Origin: Labia minor | Taxonomy: Eukaryota > Arthropoda > Insecta > Dermaptera > Spongiphoridae | DNA: 64,000 nt | Assembly: GCA_963082975.1 (NCBI GenBank) | Contig: OY720350.1 | Span: forward strand, 53,584,734 to 53,648,733 | Direction of reading: 5' to 3' | Shown here: positions 11,200-61,264 of the stretch, piece after piece | Layout: each line of letters begins with the position of its first letter | Position numbering within the stretch: position 1 is the stretch's first letter | Program-made: the position numbers and the translations under genes | The notes under the pieces: generated by a model | Seen by the model: the letters and a program-made list of their open reading frames with translations, nothing else | Told to the model about the DNA's origin: nothing | Database searches by the model: none

Positions 11200-12411
11200 T
11201 GAGAGGTTTGGTTATTCCCGGGAAAACCCCTCAATTTTTATTTCCCGTTTACCGGAAAAAAAACGAAACATTTCCCGGGAAAACAAAACAAATTATTTTT
11301 CATGTTGATTATGATGCGGAAATCTTTATTTATTAACTGAATTAATCGTAATAAATATAAAATACAAGTGTACATACATCCATTTGTCTTTTGTTATAAT
11401 TTTTTTTTTTATTTTATTTTTTTCCCTCGCTTTAATTTTTCTTTATAATTTCTCTATTTTTTGAGATTTTTTACAGTGAACTCTGGCAGACGGCAGTTGC
11501 CATTGCCAAATTATTTTATTTTATAAAATTTAAATATTATTATTTATTTATTCAAGAAATATATATACACAATCATTCTGTATGTTATTTCAGTCCACCT
11601 TTTTGGGTGGTGACAAAAAAATAGCAAAAACATCCAAAAAGCAAACAAAAACAAAAATTAGCTGGAGTGTCTCCACTCGACTATCTCGCAATTTGAATTG
11701 GATTAAATAACATAATATATTATATTTAAATTAAATTTAATTAATTATAAATTATAAATAATAAATATTAAACCAGCGCATGTTTGGCTTTTTATTGATG
11801 GCACCATGGCACGTGTTGGCGCGTGAAATTTGCAGTGTTAGAAATTAATTCTGGTACTTTCAGCAATTCAATCAAGCTGAAATTCTATATATAGCAGTTT
11901 TATACAATTATTAATCATGTGAAAAATTATCAAACATATATTTTTATTTTTACGGTCACTTTAGAGGAAAAAAAATCAAAACGTTGTATGTAATGACCCT
12001 CTTCCGGTTGAGCTACATTTCTCAAAAGTTGATAGAAAACTATGAATTTTGAATAATGTCCATGTACCAAATTTCATCATTCTAGCTCAAACCGTTTTTG
12101 CGTAATCTTGTCTACATACATACACACACACATAAACACACACACACACACACACAGACATTTTTCTCAACCTTAGTGAAAATGATTCAGGAACCTTCAA
12201 AACGTATAAAAACATCAAAATCTCAACATCGAAAATTTTCATGATCGCAATACTATCTCTGGCGAGATAGTAAAAAAAACGATCATAAATGTCTTTAATT
12301 GAGGGCACACATAATCACAGACTCAGAGATTCAGTTTTCCCTCTTTTTAGATATATACAGGAAAGAAAAACCAAAATAAGTAAAACAAAAATACAAAAAT
12401 AATGCCAAATG
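11200..12411. mobile_element. hAT-like CCCGGG element, copy 1, interrupted
   Basis: The sequence from 11200 (gaggtttggttattcccggg) to 11661, and again 12272-12411, is collinear with the more complete element at 24933-26289: shared blocks include gaaacatttcccgggaaaa, cagtccacctttttgggtgg and gatcataaatgtctttaatt. It is split by a family A insertion (11662-12271), and its right part is replaced by family B starting at 12412. It therefore predates both insertions. No transposase coding sequence is visible. Confidence 0.7.
11662..12271 (+). mobile_element. Family A Helentron-like element, full length
   Basis: The 5' end is ctggagtgtctccactcg (hairpin GAGTG/CACTC) followed by actatctcgc. The 3' end is actatctctggcgagatagt, a perfect 8-bp stem hairpin (ACTATCTC, loop TGGC, GAGATAGT) whose 3' arm also complements the 5' actatctcgc motif. 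The interior has an AT-rich left half, a block with ccaaatttcatcattctagc (complement of the gatgaaatttgg motif) and a (CA)n microsatellite at 12122-12157. Length is about 610 bp, with no coding capacity. The architecture matches non-autonomous Helentron/Helitron2 elements, though the classification is inferred. Confidence 0.8.
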
Positions 12412-12913
12412 ACCGACGATAGAGTAAGGGAGGTATTGTTTTCAAACAAAATTTCACATGTGGAGATTTTTACATATTTCCACGAATCATGCATTTTCTT
12501 AAAGGTAAAAAGTATTTTTAGCATGATGTCTGTCCGTCCCTATAGATATGTACAGCTTGAACGGCACAACGGATTTTGATGAAATTTGGTATATTTACAT
12601 ATCAGCAATCGACGATAGGAAGGGAAGTCAACTTATTTACATATCACCACGAATCATGCACTTTGTATTGGTTTTCTCCTCGAGAAAAATCATCTTTATT
12701 AGTTTTGTCTTGATTTAAAATTATATGACGTCATCCAGCCAATCATGACGTCACAGCCAGCTCTTATATATTGTAAATAAAATAAAATTAAAAATATTTA
12801 TGTTCTATGCCATGAATAGATATATTAAAATTATTTGAAATTGTTTCTGAAGCTGGAAATTAATTTACTTCAAACCGTCGGTCGGTTCGGACCTGGCCAC
12901 AGGTCAACCTATT
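12412..12913 (+). mobile_element. Family B Helentron-like element
   Basis: Begins accgacgatagagtaaggga (a shortened form of the family start accgaccgacgatag) and ends cgtcggtcggttcggacctg followed by gccacaggtcaacctatt. The 5' accgac motif is inverted as gtcggt near the 3' end, followed by the hairpin GACCTG-GCCA-CAGGTC. It contains the gatgaaatttggtatattta block. It truncates a hAT-like element at its left. Confidence 0.8.
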
Positions 12914-13251
12914 TATGAAATTTATTTACATTAAATTAAAATTATATCACATTCGGCAAACAATTTTTAATTTAAATTGAACCATTTACATTAAACGCCA
13001 CCTCCTTGTTTTTTTTTTCAAAATATGATAATTTCATTAATGAACTTCTTACTGATATATTTATAATTTTTGTTTTTTAAATTTTCATTAAAATCTTTGA
13101 ATAAAATTAAGCTTATTGATTTAATAGAATTAATAGAATTAAACTTATTGATTCGATTTAAGATGTATTCTAAAACACCACTAATTTTAAAAATTAATAT
13201 TTGTTTATTTTATTTTATTTTAATATGTATTTTATTTGAAATAATTTGCAG
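12914..13251. other. AT-rich intergenic DNA
   Basis: Nothing recognisable apart from a long T-rich tract at 13200-13250, which would act as the polypyrimidine tract of the candidate splice acceptor at 13250-13251. Confidence 0.45.
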
Positions 13252-13364
13252 TCGAGCGCTCACCTCTGCACTCCCCGCTCGCCCCTCTCCATGCCCCTCC
13301 ATCGCCTGGCTTCAACTACTCCGGCCGGCAGGGCGACTCGAACGTATTTAGTTCCCCTTGCCTG
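13252..13364 (+). other. Candidate coding exon (GC-rich, splice-like borders)
   Basis: A 113-base GC-rich block in AT-rich DNA, preceded by a T-rich tract and tttgcag, and followed by ctg|gtgagt, both good splice-site matches. One frame (entering after two bases) is open for 37 codons and reads like Pro/Ser-rich protein, including APPSPGFNYSGRQGDSNVFS, and ends exactly on a codon boundary. The gene is not recognised. A chance GC-rich island or old repeat is possible. Confidence 0.25.
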
Positions 13365-14251
13365 GTGAGTGTGAGTCCCGGAGCGGCTCCTCCACTGAAA
13401 TCATCCTTTAATCAGTCGCTAATCAAGAATTAATTGTAATTTTATTATTTATTTTTATTAATTAAAAGGAAGATTAGTGAACTTTAAAAAAAAATATTTC
13501 AATAAAAACTAAATTTTATAAAGTGCATTTTTATAATTTTTTATTCATATACCCAAATAAATTTATACATTTTTCATTCAAATCTTTCAAAAGAATTAAT
13601 CTTAAATATTCTATCAGATCTCATTAATTAAATTTTATTAAAAGTTAAATTAAAATTATTTAAAAATTAAAAAATCATATACAAAATTTTATTTTTCTTT
13701 AAATATATTTATTGCAATATTTTTTAAATTTCAATACATATATTAATCCTATTAAAGCTTATTTATTTAAAAAATAAATATTTTCAAAATTCATATAATA
13801 TAATTATAAATCAAAAAAATATAAATTGCTTATATTCATATAATAATAAATATAATATTTAAATATTCAATATATTCTTTCTAATCTCATTATCGCTCAC
13901 ACCGTTCCTTTCAAATCTCATTGTCAATTTCATATTATTATAACACTTTTAAAAAATGAATAATATTTCTATTACCTACTTGTATGATGTCAATTAATCA
14001 GAATAAAATCTTCGTGGAATTAATAATAATAATCATAATTCGTTTTCTGATGTTTTCTAAGATATTTTTATTATATGTCTATTAAATGCGTATTATAACT
14101 AAATTATTATAACCATGGTTCTATATAGGATGTAAAATAATTTTAGTATTTTAATATTACAGAAATAAGATAATATTTTTAAAAATCTATATTTTTTTAT
14201 TTCCTGTATATAATATAAATATCTAATCTTAATTATTTTTTGTTTATCGAG
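13365..14251. other. AT-rich DNA, possible intron
   Basis: No gene or repeat family recognised. If the flanking candidate exons are real, this would be an intron of about 890 bases. Confidence 0.35.
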
Positions 14252-14337
14252 GCGAGAGTGATGGACATCAATCATGTCTACGAGCTGTTCTTCGAGTTTA
14301 ATCTGCGAGAAATATCAACCATTTTTTTAACTCCGAG
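14252..14337 (+). other. Candidate coding exon (phase-compatible with 13252-13364)
   Basis: An 86-base block after tttgtttatcgag and before ccgag|gtcagt. The frame that continues from the previous candidate exon is open and includes RVMDINHVYELFFEFNLREI. Composition is less AT-rich than the flanks. A further possible donor (aaat|gtaagt, GT at 14525-14526) lies downstream. The protein family is not recognised. Confidence 0.22.
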
Positions 14338-15838: not shown

Positions 15839-15874
<36 letters not shown>

Positions 15875-16146
15875 AGCTTATTTAAAAAATTAACTTAATG
15901 TATAATTTTTGTTAATTATAAACATGTGGTACAACTTATATTTTAAATAAATAAATAAAATTAGATCTCCTAAATTTTTTTTTAATTTTGATAGATCAAA
16001 TATTCTTATTCTTTAGCTGACTTACAAATCCCATACGATCATTTTGCTTATTCTTATATATATTCTGTCCCAGTGTCCCCGCAAAAATTCTCGGTTACAT
16101 AAATAATAATATCATCCGTGAATAAACCCAATATTATTCAATTTTT
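14338..16146. other. Unassigned DNA
   Basis: Includes a less AT-rich stretch at about 14750-15420 without a recognisable gene, a T/A-rich region, and a (TA)n array at about 15842-15870. No dispersed-repeat family of this window is represented. Confidence 0.45.
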
Positions 16147-16508
16147 ACCGACCGACGATGGTAAGGGATGTATTGTTTTCACACCAAATTTCACATGTGG
16201 AGATTTTTACATATCACCACGAATCATGTATTTTGTATTGGTTTCATTCTCGGGAAAAATCATCTTCATTAGTTTTTTCTTAATTTTAAATTATATGACG
16301 TCATCCAGCCATTCATGACGTCACAGTTAGCTACTACTTATATATTATAAATAAAATAAAATTGAAAATATTTCTGTTATATGCCTATTTGTTTTTTATT
16401 ACATTAATACTTAGATATATTAAAATTATGTGAAATTGTTTCTGAAGCTGGAAATTAATTTACTTCAAACCGTCGGTCGGTTCGGACCTAGCCATAGGTC
16501 AACTTATT
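16147..16508 (+). mobile_element. Family B Helentron-like element, internally deleted
   Basis: The 5' end is accgaccgacgatggtaagg and the 3' end is cgtcggtcggttcggaccta then gccataggtcaacttat. At about 360 bp it lacks the middle of longer copies, including the tccgtccgtctg run and the gatgaaatttggta block. It is preceded by a T run, as are the other copies. Confidence 0.8.
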
Positions 16509-16544
16509 TTTTTGTTAAAATCATTTTGTGAAATTTTTGGTTGA

Positions 16545-19500: not shown

Positions 19501-19680
19501 TGTTAAAAATAATACCTGATAATAATGACCTGGGATGAATCAGAATATTGTATCGTTATCGGAGTTACATATATATGCGAAATTTCAGCTCATTCAAACA
19601 TGGGGATGAGGGTCAAATTCACGTTGGAAGATTTGACGACAGGACACGAGTTAAAACTAAATAAAAGCGTCTAAAAAAGC

Positions 19681-20293
19681 GGGAGTGTCCTCCCCTAGAC
19701 TTTCCCGCATATAAATAGGATATTAGGTTATTATTATTATGTTTTAACAACAATAAAAATAAACAAACTAATTAATTTAAATTATAAAGTAAAATGGTTT
19801 AACACTCTATTATATATATTTATAATTTACACCTAACGCTACTTGTATAGGTAAAATGTCACTTCCTGTAGTCAGATCATGATGAAATTTGGTATCTGAA
19901 TTTTTTTCATATTTTTAAATCTATATACAAAATAGGAAGCAAATATCTCTAAGCAAACTGGTACTTTACTTGAAAGGTAAACGCAACCAGTGTAGGTAAA
20001 GTACCACTTCCGGTTAACCGATTTTGACGAAATTTTGATAGAAATCTACAAACTGTGAATAATATCGGTGTACCAAATTTTGGAGACCTAGCTTGATTAG
20101 TTTCTGAGTAAATTTGCTCACAGACAAACATTACATACATCCATACATCCATACATACACACACACAGACATAATTCGAAAAATGGTATTTTCCGACTCA
20201 GGGAGGTCTAAAACGTCAAGATCTATCAAAATCTCGAAGTCGAAATTTTTGACGATTCCAATACTTCCCTTATACGAAGTATGCGGGAAAGTA
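19681..20293 (+). mobile_element. Family C Helentron-like element (single copy here)
   Basis: Starts gggagtgtcctcccctagac then ctttcccgcata; ends in a hairpin-forming stretch whose last part is tatgcgggaaag, an exact 12-base complement of the 5' motif. The 5' start parallels family A (ggagtgtctccactcg then an inverted motif). The interior has gatgaaatttggtatctg, a second, related aaccgattttgacgaaattt block, then (CATA)n/(CA)n near 20136-20170. Length is about 613 bp, with no coding capacity. It abuts a Helitron fragment on the right. Confidence 0.72.
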
Positions 20294-20295
20294 AA

Positions 20296-21668
20296 AAGGT
20301 TTTTGTCTGCCCATTCTCAGAATTTAAAATTTTGTGCATATATTCGCGTTTAATGACCTTTATAATCCAAAAGTGATTTTATAATTTTTCATGTCTGTCT
20401 GTCTGTTCTGAAAATAAGGATGTTATAGACTCAAAATTGGCTGGACCGAATTCTATGAAATTACATCACAACATTCTTATATACCTCTATTTAAACATAG
20501 GCTATATATTTTATTAATATCTAATGAAATTTAGATCATATTTAACTTAAATTATTTTTTATTTATTCTTTCTATATTTGAATATTTCTTCTTTGCTATT
20601 TAAAAGTGAAGGGTATAAATTTTATCAATGTCTTAATATAAAAAAAAACATAAATTAATATTTTTAGAGTTTTATGAATACAAAAATATTTTTAAAACGT
20701 CAATTAAAATGACTAAATTATTTTAACTTTATTTTTGTTTCAATTATTTATTATAACTATATTTTAAGTGCAAAAATGATCTCTTGGTTATATAAAAATT
20801 GAAATATGATTTTTTATAAAATGATTTTTTTGTTTTAATTTTTTCTCTTTTTAGATTGAGTAAATTTTTTAAATTTTTTTTAAATCGAAATTATTATATT
20901 ATATTGTAATTTATTAATAGGTTTCTTTTTTTATTTTTAATTTTTAATAAATTCTCTTTTTTGATACGATATTAATAAAAAATAATAATAAATTGTATAT
21001 AAATTTAAAAATTAGAATATGTGAATTTGTTTAAATTATAACACATATAATAAATCATATGCAAAAAAAATAGAAAATTTTGAAAATCTACTTATTATTA
21101 AATTCAGAAATAATAGTGTAATTATAATACTTTAAAAGATGTATATTTAATTATAATATTAAAATAGGGGTATTATCTGAGAATATTTAAAATAAATGTA
21201 TGTTTATATTGATAATTTAAAAAAAATACTTATATTAATAATACATGGACTATTTGAATATATATATATAAAACCTCTATCTCTCCCTTTATTTAAAATT
21301 TAAAAAAACGGAGTGTTCTAGCCAAATTAAGAAATTTTGATGCCTTATGCAACATGGATAGGTAACTGAATTGGACTGGAAGAGAAGACATGTGATTAGA
21401 CAAATTGGGGAAAAATCGAACGAAATGCCATTAAACAAAAAAATTCAAGAATTAGGCTACGGAGACGACTTAAATATTATAGGAGATTCGGCAACTGCAA
21501 TCAAAGATAGCGTAGGAAAATTAATCGAAGCAGGAAATGTGGTGGAGCTAGAAAAGTTAATAGTGCTAAGATAAAGTATTTAGTAACAGAAAGGAATAGT
21601 ATTAACACACAAAGTCTTAACATACAAAATGTAGAATTTGATAAAGTATAAAAATATTTAAATACTTA
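20296..21668 (+). mobile_element. Helitron fragment, plus strand, 3' end missing
   Basis: This is the inverted equivalent of the 6750-10068 element. It begins aaaaggtttttgtctgccca (5' terminal block lacking the TCTATATATA tip), passes through acgtctgtctg-like repeats and the AT-rich segment matching 8820-8990, then a reverse-transcriptase fragment. No hairpin or CTAG end follows. The 5' tip was lost at the junction with family C. Confidence 0.7.
21371..21660 (+). pseudogene. Reverse-transcriptase fragment (captured LINE piece)
   Basis: The plus-strand frame opens with a short leader and reaches LGYGDDLNIIGDSATAIKDS, the catalytic (Y/G)xDD region of a non-LTR reverse transcriptase. After a frameshift, KYLVTERNSINTQSLNIQN follows, ending at a stop near 21660. 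It is the same fragment as in the Helitron at 6750 (SDDLNIIGDSAIA) but includes slightly more upstream sequence. It is non-functional. Confidence 0.7.
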
Positions 21669-22409: not shown

Positions 22410-22844
22410 ACTAAGCCAGAGCTAGAATAATGAAATTTGGTACACCGGCATTATTCAAAATTCGTTGTTTTCTATCAACTTTTTTGAAATGTAGCTCATC
22501 CAGAAGAGGCTCATTACCTACCACGTTTTCATTCTTTTCCTCTAAACTGACCGTAAAATTAAAGATATATGTTTAATGTTTAATAGTTTTTCACATGATT
22601 AAAAATTGTATAAAACTGCTATATATAGAATTTCTGCTTGATTGAATCGCTGTAAGTACTGGAATTAATTTTTTAACACGACTGCAAATCACGCGCCAGC
22701 ACGTGACAAAGTCTGTTGGTCGCACTGGTTTAATAAATATTATTTATTAATTTTAATTTATAATTAATTAAATTTAATTTAAATACAATATATGTTATTT
22801 AATCCAATTCAAATTTGCGAGATAGTCTAGTGGAGACACTCCAG
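22410..22844 (-). mobile_element. Family A Helentron-like element, 3' part missing
   Basis: Minus strand: starts ctggagtgtctccactag, passes the caaatttgaattggatta and cgcgtgatttgcagt blocks, and stops just after the ccaaatttcattattctagc block. The microsatellite and 3' hairpin are absent. Confidence 0.78.
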
Positions 22845-28231: not shown

Positions 28232-28836
28232 CTGGAGTGTCTCCATTCGACTATTTCGCAAATTTGAATTGGATTAAATAACATATATTAATTTAAATTA
28301 AATTAAATTAATTAAATTATAAATTAAAATTAATAAATAATATTTATTAAACCAGCGCATGTTTGGCTCTTTGTTGATGGCACCACGTCACGTGTTGGCG
28401 CGTGAGAGTTGCAGTGTTAAAAAATTAATTCTGTTACTTTCAGCGATTCAATCAAGCTGAAATTTTATATATAGCAGTTTTATACAATTATTAATCTGTG
28501 AAAAATTATCAAACATATCTTTAATATTACGGTCACTCTTTAGAAGAAAAAAAAATCAAAACTTTGTAGGTAATGACCCTCTTCCGGTTGAGCTACATTT
28601 CTCAAAAGTTGATAGAAAACTATGAATTTTGAATAATGCCCATGCACCAAATTTCATCATTCTAGTTCAAACCGTTATTGGGTAATCTTGGTTACATACA
28701 TACATACACACACACACACAGACATTTTTCTCAACCTTAGTGAAAATGATTCAGGAACCTTCAAAACGTATAAAAACATCAAAATCTCAACATCGAAAAT
28801 TTTCGTGATCGCAATACTATCTCTGGCGAGATAGTA
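28232..28836 (+). mobile_element. Family A Helentron-like element, full length
   Basis: The 5' end is ctggagtgtctccattcg then actatttcgc; the 3' end is actatctctggcgagatagt. It keeps the caccaaatttcatcattcta block and a (CA)n run at about 28702-28720. Length is about 605 bp. Confidence 0.82.
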
Positions 28837-30030
28837 ATATACTTAATTGTTTCAAATTAAGATATCTTTGTTTGAACTATTTCAAGTAGAAATAATGAAT
28901 CAATTTTGTTGTTGTTTGAATTATGTTTGAAGTTGAATGGACTGGTGTACCAACTACCCCGATCAACCCCGATCAACCCCATCTACCTATTTTTTACATT
29001 CCACGAGCATTCTCTACCCCCTTGCCTTATCCTCTTTCTCTCTCTCTTGTCACACACACACATATACACACCATTTGGAAACGAAATGCAGATCTTGACC
29101 ACGCCCACCTTTGGCGTATTTCCATGACCAAGTCTCTCGCGAGCTACATATCTTATCCACGTTAGACATGGCCAAAATGGAACTTTCACCCACCCACCCA
29201 GTGTAACCGTTAAACGGACAACTTACAATTCCTTTTCAAAGTCCAGGGAGCGGTTTATTTTCTCTTCCACAAAAAAAAGAATAGAAAAAAAAACCCCCGC
29301 CCACACTAGAAGCAAACAACTACGCTACTGTTCATATCAGATTGAATTTCCAATTCTTCTCTTTTTCTATTACAATTTTTCAAACCAAAAAGGAAAAAAC
29401 ACCACCAACCATCAAAATCAATTTCAATCATATCCTTTTTTTTATTTTTATTTTTATTTTATATATTTAACAGAAAGAATATGTTATATGATATATCAGA
29501 GATAAGCGATTGAATAATCCGTCATTTATTAAAGTGAAAATAGAAACCTGAATGAAAATATGATGAGACGGCTCTATTACCATATTTCTTTTTCTATTCC
29601 TTTTTTTTATTCTTATTATTATTCTAAAGGATCTATTCAAATAAAAAAAACGAGTAAAACAATCAGAAAAAAGAGCAAACAGAAGAGAAAGATTAGAAAG
29701 GAAAAGAAACAAAAAATAAACTTAATACTTAGGTACTTACATATAAAAATATTATTATAAAGTAGAAAAAACATTAAAAGAATGAGATCAATTAATTTTT
29801 CAAAAATTATCCTTTAAAATATGTTAATTCAACAATCTGTTAATCGGATTTTCTCAAAAAAAGAATGATTTTTTTTTTAAAGAGAATATTATTTGTAATT
29901 TTAATTTTATGATAAATTAAGACACAATATAAAATAATATATTAGAGAATAGGAATTTTTAATTAATTTAGAATTATTATAATAGGAATTGGGTGTGCCT
30001 TAGGATAGAGATGTTTATAGAAATCTTAGT
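28837..30030. other. Unassigned DNA
   Basis: A less AT-rich part at 28920-29330 contains a short gatcaacccc tandem repeat at about 28960-28980 and (CA)n near 29050. The rest is AT- and A-rich, with a (TTTTA)n-like run near 29441-29462. No supported gene. Confidence 0.45.
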
Positions 30031-30169
30031 TGAGGTGGACTGAAAAGTTCGTAGGCTAGCATAGAAAAAAAAAATTTTTTGTTATAATTTGTTTTTATTA
30101 TTCAATATAGTTCCCTTCGAGGGTGATACAGCGATTATAGTGGTCATATAATTTTTTGATACCATTTTT
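30031..30169 (-). mobile_element. Mariner 3'-end fragment
   Basis: The right-hand terminal sequence is tgaggtggactgaaaagttc. Reading the minus strand from about 30169, the frame gives KNGIKKLYDHYNRCITLEGN then YIE and a stop, the C-terminus of a mariner transposase. The remainder is absent because family B begins at 30170. The family B insertion therefore sits in, or at the edge of, an older mariner. Confidence 0.72.
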
Positions 30170-30808
30170 ACCGACCGACCATAGTAAGGGAGGTATTGTT
30201 TTCACACCAAATTTCACATGTGGAGATTTTTACATATCTCCACGAATCATGCATTTTCTAAACAGAAAAAAGTATTTTTAGCATGATGTCTGTCCGTCCG
30301 TCTGTCCGTCCGTCTGTCCGTCCGTATAGATGTGTACAGCCTGAACGGCTCAACCGATTTTGATGAAATTTGGTATATTTACTTAATGCATTAGTGGGAT
30401 GAATTGATCAACTTTTGGTGCAATTCGGGAAACCGAAAGTGGTAGTATTAGCGATCGACGATAGGAAGGAAAGGGTTATTTTCACACCAAAGGAGATTTT
30501 TTTATATATCACCACGAATCATGCATTTTGTATTGGTTTTATCCTCGAAAAAAATCATATTTATTATTTTTTTATTGATTTAAAATTATATGACGTCATC
30601 CAGCCATGCATGACGTCACAGCCTGGTCTTGCATATATATTATAAATAAAATAAAATTAAAAATGTTTATATTTATTATTTATGTATCCATATCTGTTTT
30701 TTATTACATTAATAGATATATGAAAATTATTTGAAATTGTTTCTGTAGCTGGAAATTAATTTATTTCAAACCGTCGGTCGGTTCGGACCTGGCCACAGGT
30801 CAACTTAT
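30170..30808 (+). mobile_element. Family B Helentron-like element, full length
   Basis: The 5' end is accgaccgaccatagtaagg; it has an expanded tccgtccgtctg run at about 30294-30328, the gatgaaatttggtatattta block, and the 3' end cgtcggtcggttcggacctg then gccacaggtcaacttat. Length is about 640 bp. Confidence 0.85.
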
Positions 30809-31125
30809 TTTATATATCACCACGAACGTATTGGTTTTATCCTCGGGAAAAATCATCTTCATTATGTTTTTCTTAATTTAAAATTATGTGACGTCACCCA
30901 GTCCTTCATGACGTCACAGTCTCCTTATTATGATCACGGGCAACGCCGGCTACTTCAGCTATATATTAAAAATAAAATAAAATTAAAAATATTTATGTTA
31001 TATGCCTATCTGTTTTTTATTAGATTAATAGATATATTAAAATTATTTGAAATTGTTTCTGTAGCTGGAAATTAATTTATTTCAAGCCGTCGGTCGGTTC
31101 GGACCTGGCCACAGGTCAACTTATT
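30809..31125 (+). mobile_element. Family B, 5'-truncated copy in tandem
   Basis: Directly follows the previous copy and starts inside the element (tatatatcaccacgaacgta). It ends with the full 3' terminus ggtcggttcggacctggcca, caggtcaacttatt. It includes cacgggcaacgccggctact near 30938, which resembles the GC-rich hairpin of the GH repeat. The head-to-tail arrangement could come from insertion next to an existing end or from template slippage. Confidence 0.75.
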
Positions 31126-31790
31126 ATAATTTGGAGGCTCCGGAGTGGTACATAGTATTTGGTTGAAAGTAGTAAAAGGTTTTCATCCATTTTGTTTCAA
31201 TCAGTATATAACATAACAATAAAACATTCATTTCTTTTTGTGTTCTTATTTAAAATACATTTTAATTTAATCACTAAATTAATTATATATATTATTATTA
31301 TTGTATATGTTATATCTATCTATCTATGTGGCTCAACGGTACTCAAAAGTTCTTGGCCGCAACAACCACATTTCTCCAAGTGTCCCTATCCTGAGCCCAT
31401 GTCCCATCTCTCTTACGTCCTTTGTCTTCCAAGCGGAAGTTTTCCAATCGGTCTCCCCATCCCCATATCTTTTTCCTCTCCCATTCTAGCCACGTCCCCT
31501 GCCTATCGCAGCTTTTTCGCTTTTATAACCCTAACTATTTCTGAAGATGCATAGAGGTCATGCAATTCCTCGTTATGCAGTCTCCGCCATTCCCTTTGAT
31601 AATGATTTTGATGAGATAAGCCTCTTTATTGCATGATAACTGGCGTTTCCCGATGGCAACCTCGATTTAAATTCTTTTCAGAAATATTATTATTCTTCGT
31701 GATTACATTCAATTTTTCTACATATTCAAATTCTACATTTTGTAAATTAAGATTTTGTATGTTAATATTTTTCCTCTTACTAAGTAACTT
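31126..31790 (-). mobile_element. Helitron 3' half fragment with RT pseudogene
   Basis: Starts in a degraded ggaggctccggagtggtaca block and continues tagtatttggttgaaagtag, collinear with 4575-4700 and 6820-6960. From about 31301 (tatctatctatctatgtggc) to 31785 it carries the C-terminal reverse-transcriptase fragment on the minus strand, with the motif corresponding to IVRVIKS-GHVARM near 31480-31540. Both Helitron termini are missing. Confidence 0.65.
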
Positions 31791-36131: not shown

Positions 36132-36167
36132 GGAAGCGCTGTCCGGCGTTGCCTGGTGCCAATTTTT

Positions 36168-36795
36168 ACCGACCGACGATAGTAAGGGAGGTATTGTTTT
36201 CACACCAAATTTCACATATGGAGATTTTTACATATCTCCACGAATCATGCATTTTCTAAACAGAAAAAAGTATTTTTAGCATGATGTCTGTCCGTCCGTC
36301 TGTCCGTCCGTATAGATGTGTACAGCCTGAACGGCTCAACCGATTTTGATGAAATTTGGTAAATTTACTTAATGCATCAGTGGGATGAATTGATCAACTT
36401 TTGGTGCAATTCCGGAAACCGGAAGTGGTAGTATTAGCGATCGACGATAGGAAGGGAAGGGTTATTTTCACCCCAAAGGAGATTTTTTTATATATCACCA
36501 CGAATCATGCACTTTGTATTGGTTTTATCCTCGAGAAAAATCATATTTATTAGTTTTTTCTTGATTTAAAATTATATGACGTCATCCAGCCATTCATGAC
36601 GTCACAGCCTGGTCTTGCATATATATTATAAATAAAATAAAATTAAAAATGTTTATATTTATTATTTATGTATCCATATCTGTTTTTTATTACATTAATA
36701 GATATATTAAAATTATTTGAAATTGTTTCTGTAGCTGGAAATTAATTTATTTCAAACCGTCGGTCGGTTCGGACCTGGCCACAGGTCAACTTATT
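36168..36795 (+). mobile_element. Family B Helentron-like element inserted in GH
   Basis: The 5' end is accgaccgacgatagtaagg and the 3' end is cgtcggtcggttcggacctg then gccacaggtcaacttatt. Flanks are ggtgccaattttt and attattaaaattcc; the second GH copy reads ggtgccatttcttttattat without the element, so the 628-bp insertion can be delimited by comparison. Insertion lies in a T-rich site with no clear duplication, consistent with Helentron-type insertion between T residues. Confidence 0.87.
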
Positions 36796-36895
36796 ATTAT
36801 TAAAATTCCTATTTTAAGTTAAAAAAAAATACTAACAAATATGATTTTTCCCGAGACTGAAACCTAAACAGATCGATTTTTTTTCTAGTATAATA

Positions 36896-40702: not shown

Positions 40703-41058
40703 AATAAGTTGACCTGTGGCCAGGTCCGAACCGACCGACTGTTTGAAATAAATAAATTTCCAGCTACAGAAACAATTTCAAATAATTTTAATATATCTAT
40801 TAATGTAATAAAAAACAGATATGGATAGAACATAAATATTGTTAATTTTATTTTATTTATAATATATATGTAAGACCATATCATATAACGTCATATAATT
40901 ACCAACGTCATATAATTTTAAATCAAGAAAAAACTAATAAATATGATTTTCCCGAGGATAAAACCAATGCAAAGTGAATGATTCGTGGAGATATGTAAAA
41001 ATCTCCACATGTGAAATTTGGTGTGAAAACAATACCTCCCTTACTATCGTCGGTCGGT
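40703..41058 (-). mobile_element. Family B Helentron-like element, internally deleted
   Basis: Minus strand: starts accgaccgacgatagtaagg and ends with cggttcggacctggccacag then gtcaactta. At about 356 bp it is the same shortened form as 16147-16508, lacking the middle of longer copies. Confidence 0.83.
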
Positions 41059-42142
41059 AAAAAAAGTTACTTGAGGGGAAGAAACCCTCTTCATTGGCGA
41101 TATAACTGATTAATAAGAATTCATCATTAATTTTAATGCTATAAAAATTTTTTAAATACGTTCAAAATGAAAATCTATCTTGAAATCAATATTTATGTTT
41201 CAAAATCCATTGAAAAAAAATTAATCAGAGCAATACAAAAGAAGTTAGTTACTAAGAGTAATTAATCGCTAATTAATTACAATTAATTAATTATAATTTA
41301 ATTATATTTCTTCTATATCTTCTAGAGATCGATTGAAATATCTATAAAAATTTTCAAAAGTCTATCTCAATAAAATAAAAGTCGATGAAAAATCGATTTC
41401 AATTTGTCAAAAGAGCGAACAGACAGACAAAGAGACAGAGAGACAGACGCCAAGTGAAGTTAAGTAAAACGTTATAAAAAAATAAATAAATACAAAAAGT
41501 TGTAGAAGATCTTTGACTATTTTAAGTCAATAAATGGAGTCAGCAATTTCTCATAATTACATAAATGCAATTTACCTCCATGATAGAATCAATTCAAATC
41601 ATTGATAATAATTGACAATGTTAAACATTCTGTCATTGATCAAGCTGAAAGAGAAACGGAAAGTCAAACAGTCTAATGTCGCTCTACTCTCTCTCAATAG
41701 CCGGCTACTGAGACTGAGTGGGTGGCAAATGGATAAACACATGCAGACATACCATGCCAATTGCACCTCATTCCAACTCTATGCTATTATATCGTCGCAT
41801 ACAAACATTGCGCGTACCCTCGAGAGGTTAATATGTGTAGAAACCATAATAAACAGACGCGAAACTCATGAAAATTTTCCTGTGTCTTTAAGCAAGATTA
41901 GAAATGAACGAGTAATACAAACTAGGCAAATTCAACTTAAACAATGAAATTTACATTTTAGATAATATGGATGAATTAGTCATAAGTATGGTAAAAGGAA
42001 ATAGGTCTCATTAATTTATATGCAGTAATGAAATATTTAAAATACGTATATTTCAAAAATATTATTAAAATAAATGAATAAAAGTTGAATATATATGTAT
42101 AAATTCATATATGGTTCATTTAAATTTTAAATTATACCTAAT
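41059..42142. other. Unassigned DNA
   Basis: Contains a GACA/GAGA-rich stretch at about 41417-41450. A 111-codon plus-strand frame at 41612-41947 lies in somewhat less AT-rich sequence; I do not recognise its product and see no family motif, so it is not called as a gene. Confidence 0.4.
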
Positions 42143-44109: not shown

Positions 44110-44672
44110 GAAAATTTTCGATGTTGAGATTTTGATGTTTTTATACGTTTTGAAGGTTCCTGAATCATTTTCACTAAGATTGAGAAAAATGTCTGTGTGT
44201 GTATATATGTAACCAATATTACCCAAAAACGGATTGAGCTAGAATGATGAAATTTGGTACATGGGCATTATTCAAAATTCATAGTTATCTTTCAACTTTT
44301 AAGAAATGTAGCTCAACCGGAAGAGGGTCATTACCTACCACGTTTTGATTTTTTTCTTCTAAAGTGACCGTAAAAATAAAGATATATGTTTGATAATTTT
44401 TCACATGATTAAAAATTGTATAAAACTGCTATATCTAGAATTTCAATTTGATTGAATCGCTGAAAGTATCAGAATTAATTTTTTAACACTGCAACTCTCA
44501 CGCGCCAACAAGTGACGTGGTGCCATCAACAAAGAGCTAAACATGCGCTGGTTTAATAAATATTATTTATTAATTTTAATTTATAATTTATAATTAATTA
44601 AATTGAATTTAAATTAATATATGTTATTTAATCCAATTCAAATTGCGAGATAGTCGAGTGGAGACACTCCAG
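44110..44672 (-). mobile_element. Family A Helentron-like element, 3' hairpin missing
   Basis: Minus strand: ctggagtgtctccactcg, actatctcgc, through to the catcgaaaattttc block, where it meets the reverse-transcriptase relic at 44109. The terminal hairpin (actatctctggcgagatagt) and the preceding gatcgcaata are absent. Confidence 0.8.
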
Positions 44673-45854: not shown

Positions 45855-47065
45855 AAAATAAATTAAATTATTAAATTATAATATTAATAAAATAGATTTT
45901 TTTTCAAATTATTATTTTTGAAATTTAAAATTAATTTTAAATTAAATTAAATACGAAAAGATGAAATTTTAATAATTTTTTAAAAATATTAGATATATTT
46001 TAATATTATGACATTTATGACTATTATTGAGAATAATTCTATTTTGTTTGACAATTCATTCATTCATTACCTTTGAAAAAGAATGCGAAATAATTAAAAA
46101 AAAAAAAATTAATTTGAAAAAAGGGAAAAATGCTTATTGCTTTTATTTTGAACTCTCGAGTCAGCCTTCATAATATTTGTCTAAAGTAATAAATATTTTT
46201 TTTTTATATATTTCAATAATTAAATAATAATTAAATTGAATATTTCTTCAGGAACATTGAGCCAATCCTCAGTACTTTAAAAATTGATTAAAAAAAAATA
46301 TTTGTGGAAAATCTAATCGTTTTTATAAATTAATAAATAAATAATGTTTGATTTACGATTTCTATTTATAATAAATCCACTTGAAAACCAAATCAAGTTA
46401 TAACGGGGTGGGATATCATGTCAACAAAATTTATTTATTTGATTGATAGATTGATTGAGAAATGATATATGATTTGATTAATTGATCAATCATTTATGAG
46501 GATAATATATATATATATATAAATATTTATAAATATACATAAAATGGGATTATAATGTAATATGAAATGGTTTCACAAGTGTAAGTAGATAATTTTTAAG
46601 AAAACCTGCAAATGTTAACAAGCGAATTGGGAATAAATACATTTTCTTTATTATGTTCGTATCAGAATTAATCAAACATCATATTTTGTCAATTTTTATC
46701 GTGATATGTTTTATTCCCGTGACTCACATAGCGACAAGTTGATTCGAGGAGATGAAATTCAAATATATATTTGTCTCAAGTTTACTTCCAATATTTAAAG
46801 CATAAATTGAATGAATTTAAATGATTAATTAAGAAGAGAATGTAATGAGGATCGTGAGGAAGTTGGGAAGGAATAGAAGTTTGGATGGAAGTATCTCATG
46901 ACAAGGACATTTGCAGGAATGTGATTGCTGTAGTTGAGAACTTTCAAGTTCCACAGAGATTTATATAAATTATATAATTAATTAATATTTCAAACTTTCA
47001 TTACATTACATTTGACCTAACAAAATCACTCCCAAAGCACATTTTGATAAACCTTCCCATATTAT
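45855..47065. other. AT-rich intergenic DNA
   Basis: No gene or repeat family recognised; (TA)n near 46506-46520. Confidence 0.5.
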
Positions 47066-47420
47066 TACTATTTTGCCAGAGATAGTATTGCGATCACGAA
47101 AAGTTTGAGCTAGAATGATGAAATGTGGTACATGGGCATTATTCAAAGTAGTTTTCTACCAACTTTTGAGAAATGTAGCTTATCCGGAAGTGGATCATTA
47201 GCTATCACGTTTTCATTTTTTTCCTCTAAAGTGACCGTAAAAATAAAGATATATGTTTGATAGTTTTTCACATGATTAATAATTGTATAAAACTGCTATA
47301 TATAAAATTTCAGCTTGATTGAATCGCTGAAAGTACGTTAACACGTTGACTGCAAATCACGCGCCAGCACGTGACCTGGTGCCATCAACAAAGAGCCAAA
47401 GTCGCGCTGGTTTAATAAAT
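47066..47420 (-). mobile_element. Family A Helentron-like element, internally deleted
   Basis: The left side has a degraded 3' hairpin (tactattttgccagagatag) and tattgcgatcacgaaa, then jumps directly to gtttgagctagaatgatgaa, deleting the microsatellite and neighbouring block. On the right it stops at gcgctggtttaataaa, so the 5' third is missing. Confidence 0.78.
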
Positions 47421-47781
47421 TTAATAGTTTAATAGATTTTTTTTATAATTCTAACAATATATTTGTGCAAAGAAGTAATTTATTCATCATTGTCATTTCT
47501 TAGAATTTTGTTAGAATTCTTATTCGTAAATGTTCTGAAAAAATTATTTTTTTAAAAAACCTGAATCTCTAACTGCTATCAAGAGTTAAAATCATAACAT
47601 ACACTTCACACCTATATAATACATTGAATAAAATAAAACAATAAAATTAAATTTTGTTAAATAAATTTAAGAATTAACTTTGAAAATCATTTTATAAAAA
47701 TAAATTGAACATTAAATTTTAAAAATATTTTTTATGGTAATTATTAAATAAAAAACGAGATCAAAAATAATTTATATTTTT
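47421..47781. other. AT-rich intergenic DNA
   Basis: Nothing recognisable. Confidence 0.5.
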
Positions 47782-48637: not shown

Positions 48638-49343
48638 ATTTATATGAAAAAAATATTTATGAGTTAAACTTTTTTACTAACTTTCCACCGATATTATTTG
48701 AATAATATGAATGATGAAAATATATAGATATATATAATTTTATCTCTAGTAAAGTTATACATCATATTTTAAATAATATGATCTAATTATATATATACTT
48801 TGATAACTTTATTCAAAACAAATTTTAAAATAGAAAGAATTTAAATGACAATTTGATTGTAGCCAATTGTTTTTGATGGTTACAATACTTTTCTATTGTT
48901 TTTTTTTCTCTGATGTTAAGTAAAATTTTATTTATTTATTTTTTTTTCAATCCGTTTTTTTATCACAGTTGCTTTTTAACCCCTCCATCAACACACAAAT
49001 TGCTTTTTGAAGACGACTTTATTATTATCCCCGTTATACATTATCTCTAGTTTGAATTTTATTTTTCAATCTTTTGTTTTGTCTGTGTAAGTGTGAATTT
49101 GTATATATTGTATAAAATAATCTGAAAATAAAAGGTGAAATACAAGCAAAACAGAAAAGTGGTTATATAAAAGGATAGGAATGATATAAATATAAATAGA
49201 TTCTTGTATTCTAGGGCGGTCATCCCTTTAAGTTGAACATCCTCTTGATTTCTTTCAATTAATATAATATATGACTAGGAGGATAAACGTCATCATTTTC
49301 ATTAATTTTATTTTTAATTTATATTTTTATATTTAAAAATAAG
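48634..49343. other. AT-rich intergenic DNA
   Basis: Nothing recognisable. Confidence 0.5.
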
Positions 49344-49937
49344 CTGGAGTGTCTCCACTCGACTATCTCGCAATTTGAATTGGATTAAATAACATAATAT
49401 ATTATATTTAAATTAAATTTAATTAATTATAAATTATAAATAATAAATATTAAACCGGCGCATGTTTGGCTTTTTATTGATGGCACCATGGCACGTGTTG
49501 GCGCGTGAGATTTGCAGTGCTAAAAAATTAATTCTGGTACTTTCAGCGATTCAATCAAACTGAAATTCTATATATAGCAGTTTTATACAATTATTAATCA
49601 TGTGAAAAATTATCAAACATATATCTTTATTTTTACGGTCACTTTAGAGGAAAAAAAATCAAATCGTTGTAGGTAATGACCCTCTTCCGGTTGAGCTACA
49701 TTTCTCAAAAATTGATAGAAAACTATGAATTTTGAATAATGTCCATGTACCAAATTTCATCATTCTAGCTCAAACCGTTTTTGCGCAATCTTGTCTACAT
49801 ACACACACACACACAGACACAGACATTTTTCTCAACCTTAGTGAAAATTATTCAGGAACCTTCAAAAGGTATAAAAACATCAAAATCTCAACATCGAAAA
49901 TTTTCGTGATCGCAATACTATCTCTTACGAGATAGTA
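49344..49937 (+). mobile_element. Family A Helentron-like element, full length
   Basis: The 5' end is ctggagtgtctccactcg, actatctcgc. The 3' end is actatctcttacgagatagt, an 8-bp stem with a changed loop (TTAC for TGGC). The stem is therefore kept while the loop varies. (CA)n at about 49801-49816. Confidence 0.85.
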
Positions 49938-50382
49938 AAAATAATTGACATTTCAAATGTAAAATTACAATAAATCATTATATTAATAAAATTACATTTA
50001 TAATTTTGTACATTTCAACTTACCTTATAATCCTATTAGAGAAAATATAAAATATTTCCTAATAATAAGTGAGAAAAAAATTCCACCAAAATTATTATTT
50101 CTTTCTTTAAAAATCTATTAAATTTTTATACAGTTAGACAGTTATGGACTATTTAAAAATAAGAAATAAATTATTTATTTAGTGCTTGCTTCTCTATACT
50201 AAAATTATCATAAAGTTAAAAATAAAAATATCTCATTCTGAGAATCTTTACTAAAAGGGAATCGAAATTATATATGAACATTTATGCAAAATTAAGTAGA
50301 TCGTTTTTAAAATAGAAATTTCGAAACATATATGAAACTAGGTGTAGAAAATGTTATATTTAAACTATCGACTTTTGTTAGA
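49938..50382. other. AT-rich intergenic DNA
   Basis: Nothing recognisable. Confidence 0.5.
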
Positions 50383-54509: not shown

Positions 54510-54552
54510 TATTAAAACATTCTATCGTATATACATATATATATAGAGAGAG
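54510..54552 (+). repeat. Direct repeat, unit 2
   Basis: tattaaaacattctatcgta followed by a shorter TA run and gagagag. It is the downstream partner of 53871-53923. Confidence 0.6.
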
Positions 54553-56572: not shown

Positions 56573-57102
56573 CAGGCGTGGCCACACTTGGTGATACTTA
56601 GAGCCATATTGAAAAATCGAAAATGTTTAAGAGCCTGATCGCAAAAACATTTTTCCCTTTTTTACCGTCCGACGATAGTAGGGGAGGTATTGTTTTCACA
56701 CCAAATTTCACATGTGGAGATTTTTACATATCTCCACGAATCATGCATTTGCTTAACAGAAAAAAGTATTATTAGCATCATGTCTGTCCGTCCGTCCGTA
56801 TAGATGTGTACAGCTTGAAAGGCTCAACGGATTTTGATGAAATTTCGTGTATTTACTTAATGCATCAGTATGATGAATGGATCAACTTTTAGTGCAAATC
56901 TGGAAACCGGAAATGGTAGTATTAGCGATCGACGAAGGGAAGGGTTATTTTCACACCAAATTTTACATGAGGAGATTTTTTTACATATCACCAAGAATCA
57001 TGCACTTTGTATTGGTTGTAGCTGGAAATTACTTCAAACCGTCGGTCGGTTCGGACCTGGCCACAGGTCAACTTATTTAGAGCCATATTGAAACGACCCC
57101 TG
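56573..57102. mobile_element. hAT-type element split by family B
   Basis: The left part is caggcgtggccacacttggt then gatacttagagccatattga (56573-56663); the right part is gagccatattgaaacgaccc then ctg (57078-57102). The left end matches the right tip of the hAT element at 42151-42627 in inverted orientation. Family B (56664-57076) sits between the parts. Flanks (taatataa, atatagat) do not form a clear duplication, so one end may be rearranged. Confidence 0.6.
56664..57076 (+). mobile_element. Family B Helentron-like element, shortened near 3' end
   Basis: The 5' end is accgtccgacgatagtaggg and the 3' end is cgtcggtcggttcggacctg then gccacaggtcaacttat. It keeps the gatgaaatttcgtgtattta block and a short tccgtccgtccg run, but lacks the gacgtcatccagcc segment of longer copies. 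Confidence 0.82.
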
Positions 57103-57107
57103 ATATA

Positions 57108-58046: not shown

Positions 58047-58078
<32 letters not shown>

Positions 58079-58282
58079 TTACATCATTGTATAATTATCA
58101 AAAATGGATATTTGAATCTTAAAATCTAATAAATATTATTTATTTTTATTATGATCGCAATCATTTTTGGAAAATAAAATAAAAATTTTATCCATCATTT
58201 ACTTTACAACCTATTTAAATACGAATTATAAATTAAAAATCAAAGGCCCTATTTACACAGTTTAATAATGTTATATAAATTC

Positions 58283-58327
<45 letters not shown>

Positions 58328-58665
58328 ATTTTAAATTCATCCATCAATGAATAAATAATAAATATATATGCATACACGTATGTTGGTTGGTTTAACTAAA
58401 ATTGTGAAATATGTTTTGAGTAGAAAAACAAACCCAACCAACCACTAACACGTTTTATAATAAATCACTTGATTTGTATTCAGTATTTCGATTTTAGAAT
58501 TAATATTATTATAATATATATACATATATAAATGTTGGATCAATCATTCAACATTCAATGAATTTACAATATAATGTAGACTTGTAGACAAACAAAAAAT
58601 GTACCATTCATATATACAATAGTAGAATAGTATTACTATTTAACTTTGACAATCATAGAAATATA
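57433..58665. other. AT-rich intergenic DNA with (CA)n and (TA)n
   Basis: (CA)n at about 58048-58067 and (TA)n at about 58291-58324. An inverted pair of short motifs (ggttggttt near 58385 and aacccaaccaacca near 58431) flanks about 50 bases. No gene. Confidence 0.5.
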
Positions 58666-58667
58666 TA

Positions 58668-59553
58668 CAATGTATTTCAAAAAAACGAAAGATTGCGTTT
58701 TGATAATAATATTTATTTATTTATCAATATTTATGTGTTGTCCCCTTCAAAGTAATCCCCCTCAGATACAATACACTTATGCCAACGGTGGTTCCAATCC
58801 TCAAAGCACTTCTCATAAGCACTTTTCGGTTTAGCCTTGAGCTCTTCCAGCCATGCAGTCTTTATCTCCTCAATTATTGCAAATCTTCGTCCTTTCATAG
58901 GTCTCTTTAGTTTTGGGAACAAGAAAAAGTCACATGGGCCAAATCCGGTGAATATGGTGGCTGAGACATGATTGTGGTGTTGTTTTTGGTCAAAAAATCT
59001 CTCACAAGCAAAGATGAGTGAGCAGTTTTTCCACAATTCTGGACGTTTTCTTCGTATTGTTTCTCGCAAACGACGCATAACTTCAAGATAATACTGTTTA
59101 TGGACCGTACGACCATCTAGTAAGAACTCCTGATGCACCACGCCATTGTAATCGAAGAAAACAGTGAGCTTGGGCGTCCAGAGCGAGGCTCGTCATTGGC
59201 ATCTTCCCGGCCATCTTGGAAGAGTTTGTACCACTTGTAAACATTTTTTTTACTCAGAACAGTTTCACCGCATGCCAGTGTGAACATTTCAAGTGTTTCG
59301 GAGCACTTTATTTTATTTTTTACACAAAATTTGATGCAAATCCTTTGATCCATATTTTCCGATAGTAAAAAAATCGCCGAGCCCGCAAAACACTTATAAT
59401 CTTTACGCCTCTCACAACCAAACAAAAAATGCTATACACTTGAAACTTGGTACAGATGTTCGAGAAGAGTGTATCAACATAACAAAACAAAAAAATCGAA
59501 AGTAAGTTGCCCGCGAAATTTGAAAAGTCACTTTACTTTTCGAACATACCTCG
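58668..59553 (-). mobile_element. Deleted mariner element retaining both ends
   Basis: On the minus strand the 5' end is cgaggtatgttcgaaaagta, a typical mariner tip, with TA at 59554-59555. The other end (from 58668, caatgtatttcaaaaaaacg) is a diverged inverted copy with TA at 58666-58667. At about 886 bp it is some 400 bp shorter than a usual mariner, owing to an internal deletion in the transposase. Confidence 0.78.
58731..59353 (-). pseudogene. Mariner transposase pseudogene, internally deleted
   Basis: The minus-strand start ATG is at 59353 (MDQRICIKFCVKNKIKCSE), followed by the helix-turn-helix region ending YKWYKLFQDGREDANDEPRS. A deletion then removes roughly residues 70-190, including the first catalytic Asp. 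The frame resumes, shifted, at LTVFFDYNGVVHQEFLLDGR, YYLEVMRRLRETIRRKRPEL, loses the second Asp region through a small deletion, and continues through GPCDFFLFPKLKRPMKGRRF (third Asp) to the normal C-terminus KCIVSEGDYFEGDN and a stop at 58731. It is not functional. The lineage differs from the mariners at 16545 and 50460. Confidence 0.82.
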
Positions 59554-59555
59554 TA

Positions 59556-59919
59556 AATATAAATTAAATAATTATTTTTAGTATTTTAAAATAATATTTA
59601 ATACTACCTATTGTTAAATTCAAATGAAAAAATACTGCATGTACGAATACTAGGGTGACATACTGATGTCCATTTCGTACTTTTTTTCAAAATTTTTTCA
59701 ATTTGGTTCTAAAAAAACAAAAGGTAAACCGTTTTGGTGTTTTCGAAATGCTAAAACAAGGTGAATAGGGAATCAAATTTAAAATTGATTGCTTTATTAT
59801 TATTGATTCGAGTTCATCAAATCCGACACATCCAGTCATCATATAGAAATTAAATTTTTGAAATCTTAAAATATAAAGAAACATCAAAACTTATTGATTT
59901 GTTATTTATATATAATTTA
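59556..59919. other. AT-rich intergenic DNA
   Basis: Nothing recognisable. Confidence 0.5.
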
Positions 59920-60095
59920 TTCGAGAAGCCACGCAGTGTGGGAGGAAACATACTTGACTCTCAACCTCGACTAAGGGGTGGAGACCACTCAGCCTCCGAG
60001 ATAAAAATTGGGAAGATACTTGAAATAAAAAGTTGCGCCTCCGATCAAGAAAACCAAGATGAAGGTTAAGAGGATCCTTTCGTAGGATATACAAA
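59920..60095 (+). mobile_element. SINE fragment related to 37466-37722
   Basis: Shares the body block of the SINE at 37466: aagatacttgaaataaaaag, ttgcgcctccgatcaagaaa and aagatgaaggttaagaggat. The head (agaagccacgcagtgtggga) differs and has no clear box B, so it is a truncated or recombinant copy. No duplication seen. Confidence 0.6.
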
Positions 60096-60778
60096 AATCA
60101 AAATTTTTATATCATTTATTTGAAAAATATACATAATAATTATATTATTTATTTATTTATCTTATTTAAATTAAATAATACAATCATAAAATTATTATTA
60201 TTATATTTTGTAAATAAAAATTTGGTTTATTTTGAGAAAGAGCACATGAATTATATTAAGTTGAAAAGTTTTATTTGAAAGGGTAGGCAAGAGATTGCAT
60301 GTTAATGAAGACACCTCGATGACTCTTCCACTGGAAAATATAGGCCAATCCACACATGCACTCATTCCTTGTAACTTCCCTCAGAAACCAGATTAACCAA
60401 CACGATGTAAATTAACTCTCTGTGAAGATATATAGGTGTACACACCCACACTCCCTACCATATCTCACTCACCCTTGCACCTTTTGTTCCTTTATAGCCT
60501 AATTAATTCATCCTGTCAGGGTGGCTAAATTCAATCCATAGAAAATGATTCTCTACTTTTGAAATTCTATCTAATACATGAAGAACTATGAATATATTAA
60601 TGTAAATATAACGTTTCAGATATTAACATTTGTTTATTTATTAAAATTATTTTTTATTCATTAATATAGATAATATACTTATAATATACCATCTAGCAGG
60701 AAAGTTCCACCCCATCCCTTGTCATATTTTTGAACAATAGGTAGTACGTATAATCTACTACAATATTCAGTATGTTTT
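60096..60778. other. Unassigned DNA
   Basis: AT-rich with a less AT-rich stretch at about 60290-60520. No gene or repeat family recognised. Confidence 0.45.
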
Positions 60779-61264
60779 TACTATCTCGCCTGAGATAGTA
60801 TTGCGATCACGACAATTTTCGATGTTGAGATTTTGATGTTTTTATACGTTTTGAAGGTTCGTGAATCATTTTCACTAAGGTTGAGAAAAATATCTGTGTG
60901 TGTATGTATGTAACCAAGATTACGCAAAAACGGTTTGAGCTAGAATGATGAAATTTGGTACATGGACATTATTCAAAATTCATAGTTTTCTATCAACTTT
61001 TGAGAAATGTAGCTCAACCGGAAGAGGGTCATTACCTACAACGTTTTGATTTTTTTTTCTTCTAAAGTGACCGTAAAAATAAGGATATATGTTTGATAAT
61101 TTTTCACATGATTAAAAATTGTATAAAACTGCTATATATAAAATTTCAGCTTGATTGAATCGTTGAAAGTACCAGAATTAATTTTTTAACACTGCAAATC
61201 TCACGTTATCTATGTTATTTAATCCAATTCAAATTTGCGAGATAGTCGAGTGGTGACACTCCAG
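60779..61264 (-). mobile_element. Family A Helentron-like element, internally deleted
   Basis: Both ends are present on the minus strand: ctggagtgtcaccactcg, actatctcgc at the right and the 3' hairpin actatctc-aggc-gagatagt at the left, with an altered loop. About 130 bases of the AT-rich 5' half, including the gcgcgtgag block, are missing. Confidence 0.83.

Follow-up and report, generated by a model that had tools for sequence, protein, structure and literature searches.

Three families of short repeats (A, B and C) in a 64 kb stretch of the Labia minor genome (C9:53584734-53648733, called the window below; GC content 21-32% per 2 kb; genome of 604 Mb in 71 contigs) are very probably non-autonomous Helentrons (HINEs) that were moved in trans by the rolling-circle enzymes of Helentrons. 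Mobilisation by Helentron enzymes encoded outside the window had been proposed in a preliminary description of this DNA, and is supported by a coding element on C1 bounded by the ends of A (helX) and by insertion into T-runs. By analogy with the element family, ends, parent and target may together be read as support for rolling-circle transfer by Helentron enzymes in trans: Rep would nick within the 5' T-run, the helicase would unwind one strand, the 3' stem-loop would terminate the transfer, and the single strand would be joined into a T-rich target, with the donor staying in place. Anonymous short repeat ends, in numbers of tens of thousands in this one genome, would be tied to the enzymes most likely spreading them, with ends and target known and, for A, the parent as well. 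The end rules of Helentrons (one stem-loop, one inverted repeat pair, a T-run possibly owned by the element) become testable, and nested copies supply empty sites for dating.

Termini, insertion sites and copy numbers

Family B has the order TTTTT-ACCGACCGACG ... CGTCGGTCGGT-TCG-GACCTG-GCCA-CAGGTC-AACTTAT-T. After reverse complementation, A reads TTTTT-ACTATCTCGC-CAGAGATAGT ... GCGAGATAGT-CGAGT-GGAG-ACA-CTCC-AGCTAA-TTTT and C reads TTTTT-ACTTTCCCGCATA ... TATGCGGGAAAG-TCTAG-GGGAG-GACA-CTCCC-GC-TT; in this orientation the plans of the three families therefore coincide (T-run, 5' subterminal repeat, body, inverted copy of the repeat, stem-loop, T-run). The preliminary description had oriented B correctly and A and C backwards, the 5' end assumed there being the true 3' end, as shown by the coding copy. 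In sequence, the reference copies have perfectly paired 3' stems (A, 4 bp; B, 6 bp; C, 5 bp). DNA folding of the isolated termini, which had been suggested as a check, gave mixed results: the 5' hairpin of A (z -3.65) and the 3' end of B (z -3.91) were supportive, and the 3' end of A (z -1.50), the 5' end of C (z -1.82) and the 5' end of B (z -0.26) were weak. For the 3' end of C the value was good (z -3.46); in the best fold, however, the 3' arm of the stem-loop is paired to the subterminal repeat and the local stem is not formed.

Subterminal inverted repeats are thus present in all three families, and a stem-loop near the 3' end is present by sequence, with folding backing it for B, weakly for A, and through other pairs in C. 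Judged by these ends, the plan is that described for HINEs in PMC4067079. According to the same paper, HINEs and Helentrons of mite, Culex and Drosophila likewise have subterminal inverted repeats (palindromic in A) and a 3' stem-loop, insert into T-rich targets with no target duplication found, and include short forms derived by deletion from elements that encode Rep, helicase and endonuclease. They differ from A, B and C in their end sequences and in the distance from the end of the 3' subterminal repeat to the 3' terminus (~20-26 nt here, 38-60 in the mite elements). DINE-1/INE-1 of Drosophila, as presented there, agree in subterminal inverted repeats, 3' stem-loop, TT insertion and high abundance; in DINE-1 a core sequence and one more inverted repeat, inside the element, come in addition (PMC4067079), neither of them looked for in A, B and C.

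Insertion sites were assessed from 5' flanks and from empty sites. The flank sets comprised all pattern matches, doubtful ones included, and part of the T's may be the element's own. Among distinct flanks, TT stood at the end in 22 of 26 for A and in all 21 for B, and TTTTT in 17/26 and 16/21, against backgrounds of 15% and 1.5%, respectively. Filled and empty sites were aligned, as had also been suggested, for seven copies and later for one more (B in L001). Clean pairs were obtained for B in L006 (5T + B + 3T filled; 8T and 7T empty, window 8194 and 5435), for B within a B copy in L001 (5T + B + 2T filled; 6T empty in L007, L073 and window 36206-36336) and for C in L043 within an A copy (5+3 T's plus TTA filled; 6 T's empty in three A sequences). 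The alignments indicate insertion into T-runs, and no fixed-length target duplication beyond one or two T's was found at the clean empty sites. The T-rich site without target duplication that characterises HINEs is thus present, save for a possible duplication of one or two T's.

Several of these comparisons weigh against the Helentron assignment or leave it less secure. Some sites matched with changes (B in L005 and at window 36168 compared with 43538; A in L054 compared with 19254), and two of the seven copies, both A, had no clean empty site; for A no clean empty site was found at all, the failed comparisons being 11657-12275 with window 25640-25815 and A in L047. The T excess over the empty site is 2 for C in A and 1 for B in B, and in these numbers a duplication is indistinguishable from element-owned T's.

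The paired inverted repeats of 10-13 bp near both ends would also be expected if A, B and C were miniature inverted-repeat transposable elements (MITEs), moved by cut-and-paste by a terminal inverted repeat (TIR) transposase with these repeats as TIRs. This explanation is almost certainly wrong, as the repeat at the 3' end stops short of the terminus and only that end bears an extra stem-loop, and as no fixed duplication other than T's is seen at the clean empty sites. Long relatives coding for a TIR transposase had been named beforehand as counter-evidence to Helentron mobilisation; for A the opposite was found, the long copy with its ends, helX, encoding Rep and PIF1.

BLAST with one copy per family detected nine A loci in the window (the first truncated at its edge), six B loci plus one partial, and one C locus, which agrees with the preliminary description, and the end motifs stood at the positions given there. 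Window matches with at most one mismatch numbered 12 for ACTATCTCGC (shuffled mean 1.05) and 12 for ACCGACCGACG (shuffled mean 0.06), far above expectation, and 2 for CTTTCCCGCATA (shuffled mean 0.16; 1/100 shuffles also reached 2). Exact genome-wide counts were 15,977 (8075+7902) for 28 bp of the A 3' end, 18,582 (9322+9260) for the B hairpin and 3,184 (1578+1606) for T5 plus the C 5' end, with 0 for the backwards control of each pattern. Incomplete copies exist, the two-ended pattern recovering 4/9 of the A copies in the window. Across all sequence examined, 41 two-ended copies were collected (20 A, 19 B, 2 C), including 3 B rows that start at an internal repeat and 1 A row of 1.36 kb. The 19 full short A copies have a mean mutual likeness of 95.1% (range 89.0-99.7%), so that part of the spread would be fairly recent.

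A and C are 67% identical over 279 bp and 78% over the last 45 bp; B has only short stretches in common with either. By this homology A and C are one lineage, with C a diverged relative of A, and there are two lineages, not three unrelated ones. A 14-bp internal motif, GATGAAATTTGGTA, is common to A, B and helX at position 181-206; at window 36348-36361 (B) and 12065-12078 (A) it has the same orientation and a similar distance relative to the 5' ends. A literature search for this motif returned nothing.

A coding element with the ends of family A

The genome was searched with the Helitron Rep domain (104 matches), and 30 matches were made into loci with 1.5 kb flanks. A Rep match outside these loci, C1:47868109, lies in a 2181-aa open frame, which was read with flanks as helX2 (C1:47862493-47876492, minus strand, 14,000 nt); the element helX within it measures 12.2 kb. 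In helX2, ACTATCTCGCCAGAGATAGT begins at 1716, directly after a T-run. The A reference aligns with its positions 1-506 to helX2 1712-2230 (93.8%), with 298-536 a second time to 2225-2465 (92.6%), and with its last 42 bp (578-619) to 13844-13885 (100%). Between these A-like ends lies the open reading frame (ORF), helX2 6057-12599 from stop to stop, 2181 aa, with the first Met at residue 17. Since the 3' end of A is missing after helX2 2465, and the final 42 bp of A reappear at the opposite end of the element, A has the appearance of helX with an internal deletion. Ends shared with an autonomous Helentron, as in HINEs, are thus present for A, and the long coding copy that the preliminary description had recommended searching for, with Rep, helicase and an endonuclease-like domain, exists for this family.

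A second helX copy is located at C1:44.69 Mb, with the coding part 93-97% identical in three pieces. Over 249 bp that include the A 3' end, its 3' untranslated region (UTR; L085) is 99.2% identical to helX2 13641-13889; the homology ceases one base past AGCTAATTTT, the terminus of A; ~1 kb of helX upstream of this block is missing from the second copy. The 194 bp just upstream of the 3' A end of helX have 3 genome matches (100, 99 and 91%), compared with the 15,977 exact A ends. These data bear on the reading of helX as a chimera, in which an unrelated Helitron was inserted by chance into an A copy. Nested insertions do occur in helX (the repeat at helX2 2656-3484 and the piece of a B-type locus described below), and the evidence from the second copy covers coding pieces and 3' UTR, not the 5' end. 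A chance chimera is nonetheless extremely unlikely: A 3' end and helX 3' UTR form one block in the second copy, with homology ending at the terminus of A, and the helX 3' UTR matches a third locus at 91%. A further argument is weak, in that A has 53 bp resembling the helX 3' UTR (83%) in an AT-rich stretch.

The high-copy repeat nested in helX (L076, helX2 2656-3484) occurs at at least 40 other places with 84-96% identity (40 of 4992 candidates scored), three of the listed places being near Rep loci that belong to a single Helitron family (L009, L012, L027), at distances of 2-3.2 kb.

In Pfam scans the helX ORF matched Helitron_like_N (2.2e-23), PIF1 (1.4e-31) and DUF6570 (3.3e-12). The endonuclease domain PF14529 scored 5.8e-5 on 200 aa and 3.3e-4 on 533 aa; this stretch matches many other loci at 35-41% and contains GDFN, which we take to be an AP-endonuclease motif. 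A C-terminal AP endonuclease is thus indicated weakly, at low score. The Rep motif of helX is VEFQMRGSPHEH, with GSPHEH; the S in G-S-P-H is a sign of Helentrons, which have S at this place where Helitrons have L, according to PMC4067079. A second Helentron sign given there is F/Y, then W/L/Y/K, then R, near motif 2 (PMC4067079). On the other side of the balance stand the Y-E-R of helX at this second sign, where 2/3 places fit, the PF14529 score of 23.4 bits against a Pfam cut-off of 27.4 (the domain was not listed at E 0.001 in a 1533-aa scan), and a stop in one coding piece of the second helX copy.

The movers might instead be canonical Helitrons, of which the genome holds several intact-looking families, or Helitron2-type enzymes without an endonuclease. 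The abundance of Rep matches would suit this explanation: among the 30 loci, 22 had GLPH, 4 had GSPH (L034-L037) and 4 had no match to the search motif, and one canonical family has seven copies ~99.9% identical. The weak endonuclease match in helX would suit it too. We consider it very unlikely, since the insertions are in T-runs and not between A and T, and the A-bounded ORF bears GSPHEH together with an endonuclease-like domain. When the surroundings (6 kb up, 8 kb down) of two Helitron-type loci (L069/70, L071/72) and one Helentron-type locus (L073/74) were read, with the own ends of the two Helitron-type elements left undefined, the only A, B or C ends belonged to a separate A copy that follows L069/70 and to B copies that precede L073/74. 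Replitrons were set aside, as the Rep-PIF1 parent settles the class; one search for them gave nothing of use.

The last 233 aa of the helX ORF match Peptidase_C48 weakly (9.6e-4, 19.5 bits against a cut-off of 20.7) and the solved SENP8 structure likewise (0.0046), with HW, D, Q and DCG aligned, presumably the catalytic residues. These His, Asp, Gln and Cys motifs follow the endonuclease in that order. A Ulp1/SENP8-like (C48) cysteine protease at the end of the single ORF is a proposal for which we see the case as evenly balanced: each of the two scores is marginal, and PF02902 (C48), when searched against the genome, gave 8 matches, none of them at helX. No OTU or RPA match appeared in Pfam scans of the helX ORF alone; these accessory proteins are not in every Helentron, and the parent ORF departs from the HINE and Helentron systems of PMC4067079 in having no such domain found and a weak Ulp1-like match. 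Helentrons with a VTD or OTU deubiquitinase, as summarised in PMC9741609, likewise have an ORF with a cysteine protease domain of the ubiquitin pathway and differ in protease class from the weak Ulp1/SENP8 (C48) match seen here; Helentrons with another protease class are described there, and such recruitment is therefore known in kind. A literature search found no paper naming both Helentron and Ulp1, and PMC2836005 names OTU in connection with Helitrons and Ulp1 in connection with Ginger and Mutator. If the domain is real, C48 would join OTU and the herpesvirus-tegument type as a third class of proteases for ubiquitin-like modifiers that Helentrons have recruited, in support of repeated recruitment of ubiquitin-pathway proteases. 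This possible domain may be the one new feature, the rest being of a known kind.

A candidate parent of B, the search for C ends, and other Rep loci

A long-copy search had been proposed for B and C as well, and was successful in part, for the 5' end of B. The region helX2 3595-4160 corresponds to the 5' 566 bp of B without the B 3' end. With helX2 4100-6000 as query and 40 of 2241 candidates scored, the matches included C1:55785790-55787129 (contiguous, 90%) and C5:80763782 (94%). The former has a Rep match 3.6 kb downstream (55789425), 4.1 kb from a B 5' terminus at 55785332, and C1:55797500-55798477, downstream of the B-type 5' part, is 44% identical to the helicase/endonuclease region of helX. 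The 150 bp read at the predicted 5' end consist of unrelated sequence and then, from C1:55785332, TTTTTACCGACCGACGATAGTAAGG, where 48 bp are identical to B and helX. By this match the 5' end of B is the start of a second, Helentron-like locus, and we infer that helX carries a truncated piece of it.

Less favourable to a Helentron parent for B and C are the following results. Rep and endonuclease parts of the B-type locus, candidates for a single element, are separated by 8.1 kb, a distance that exceeds the one in helX by 5 kb; no B 3' end was found in the 1.3 kb downstream of its endonuclease. For C, no C end was detected at the Rep loci searched for it, and this family would be tied to Helentrons only via its homology to A.

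At the 30 Rep loci with 1.5 kb flanks, ends of A, B or C were found at one locus only, L033 (a B 3' end and a C-like stem-loop); none were found at L081 and L082, nor downstream of C63 and C1:55.80 Mb. L081 resembles a long terminal repeat (LTR) retrotransposon, as judged by eye.

The L034-L037 family was rejected as parent, as it has its own 5' end, TTTTACCACGTTTTT, unlike those of A, B and C. Together with L073/L074 and L079/L080 it forms a separate Helentron-type family with the motif GSPHIH, and L034-L037 are 99.7-99.9% identical over the 3.4 kb compared. Its 5' end was seen in two copies, and AAAAACGTGG-TTTTTT is put forward tentatively as its 3' end; an apparent LTR retrotransposon interrupts one copy. 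The leader of this family (L073, L080) and that of the B-type piece in helX (L076, helX2 4440-5600) share stretches of ~90% identity, as well as AT-rich tandem repeats (~85%) that occur at many other places. The canonical Helitron family with seven near-identical copies (L015-L021, GLPH motif, compared over 3.6 kb) has a 1652-aa open frame in 5/7 copies and is therefore apparently very recent.

Features of the window

Table 1 Copies and terminal features of families A, B and C in the window (position 1 is the first nucleotide of the window)
Feature	Position	Strand	Evidence
Family A, 3' end only (cut by edge)	1..68	+	BLAST
Family A, reference copy, both ends	11657..12275	-	BLAST, two-ended pattern
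A, true 5' subterminal repeat within hairpin, ACTATCTCGCCAGAGATAGT	12252..12271	-	same sequence begins Helentron helX; folding
A, true 3' subterminal inverted repeat, GCGAGATAGT	11680..11689	-	motif search; helX
A, 3' stem-loop GGAG-ACA-CTCC (the start of A in the preliminary description)	11664..11674	-	sequence; weak folding
Family A, 5' truncated	22419..22844	+	BLAST
Family A, both ends	28232..28837	-	BLAST, two-ended pattern
Family A, without first 35 bp	44110..44672	+	BLAST
Family A, without 3' stem-loop	45271..45857	-	BLAST
Family A, partial, internal deletion, without 3' end	47065..47433	+	BLAST
Family A, both ends	49339..49940	-	BLAST, two-ended pattern
Family A, internal deletion, both ends	60776..61264	+	BLAST, two-ended pattern
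Family B, internal deletion	12411..12913	+	BLAST
Family B, internal deletion	16142..16508	+	BLAST
Family B, full length	30165..30809	+	BLAST, two-ended pattern
Family B, partial, abuts B copy 30165..30809	30805..31127	+	BLAST
Family B, reference copy, full length	36163..36797	+	BLAST, two-ended pattern
B, 5' subterminal repeat, ACCGACCGACG	36168..36178	+	motif search
B, 3' subterminal inverted repeat, CGTCGGTCGGT	36758..36768	+	motif search
B, 3' stem-loop GACCTG-GCCA-CAGGTC	36772..36787	+	sequence, folding
Family B, internal deletion	40703..41063	-	BLAST
Family B, internal deletion	56659..57077	+	BLAST
Family C, both ends	19678..20297	-	BLAST, two-ended pattern, motif search
C, 5' subterminal repeat	20280-20291	-	sequence
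C, 3' subterminal repeat	19700-19711	-	sequence
C, 3' stem-loop	19681-19694	-	sequence

Further sequences were noted in the window. A reverse transcriptase fragment lies at 34595-35875 (RVT_1 8e-40, 426 aa open), and fragments of mariner-type transposases lie at 50684-51100 and 58731-59192 (Transposase_1 2e-8; HTH_48 under the cut-off). A further repeat family occupies three places within 4596-8227 and 31160-31600, up to 95-97% alike in parts, with two open frames that gave no Pfam match above the cut-off; parts of it are the empty sites for B in L006.

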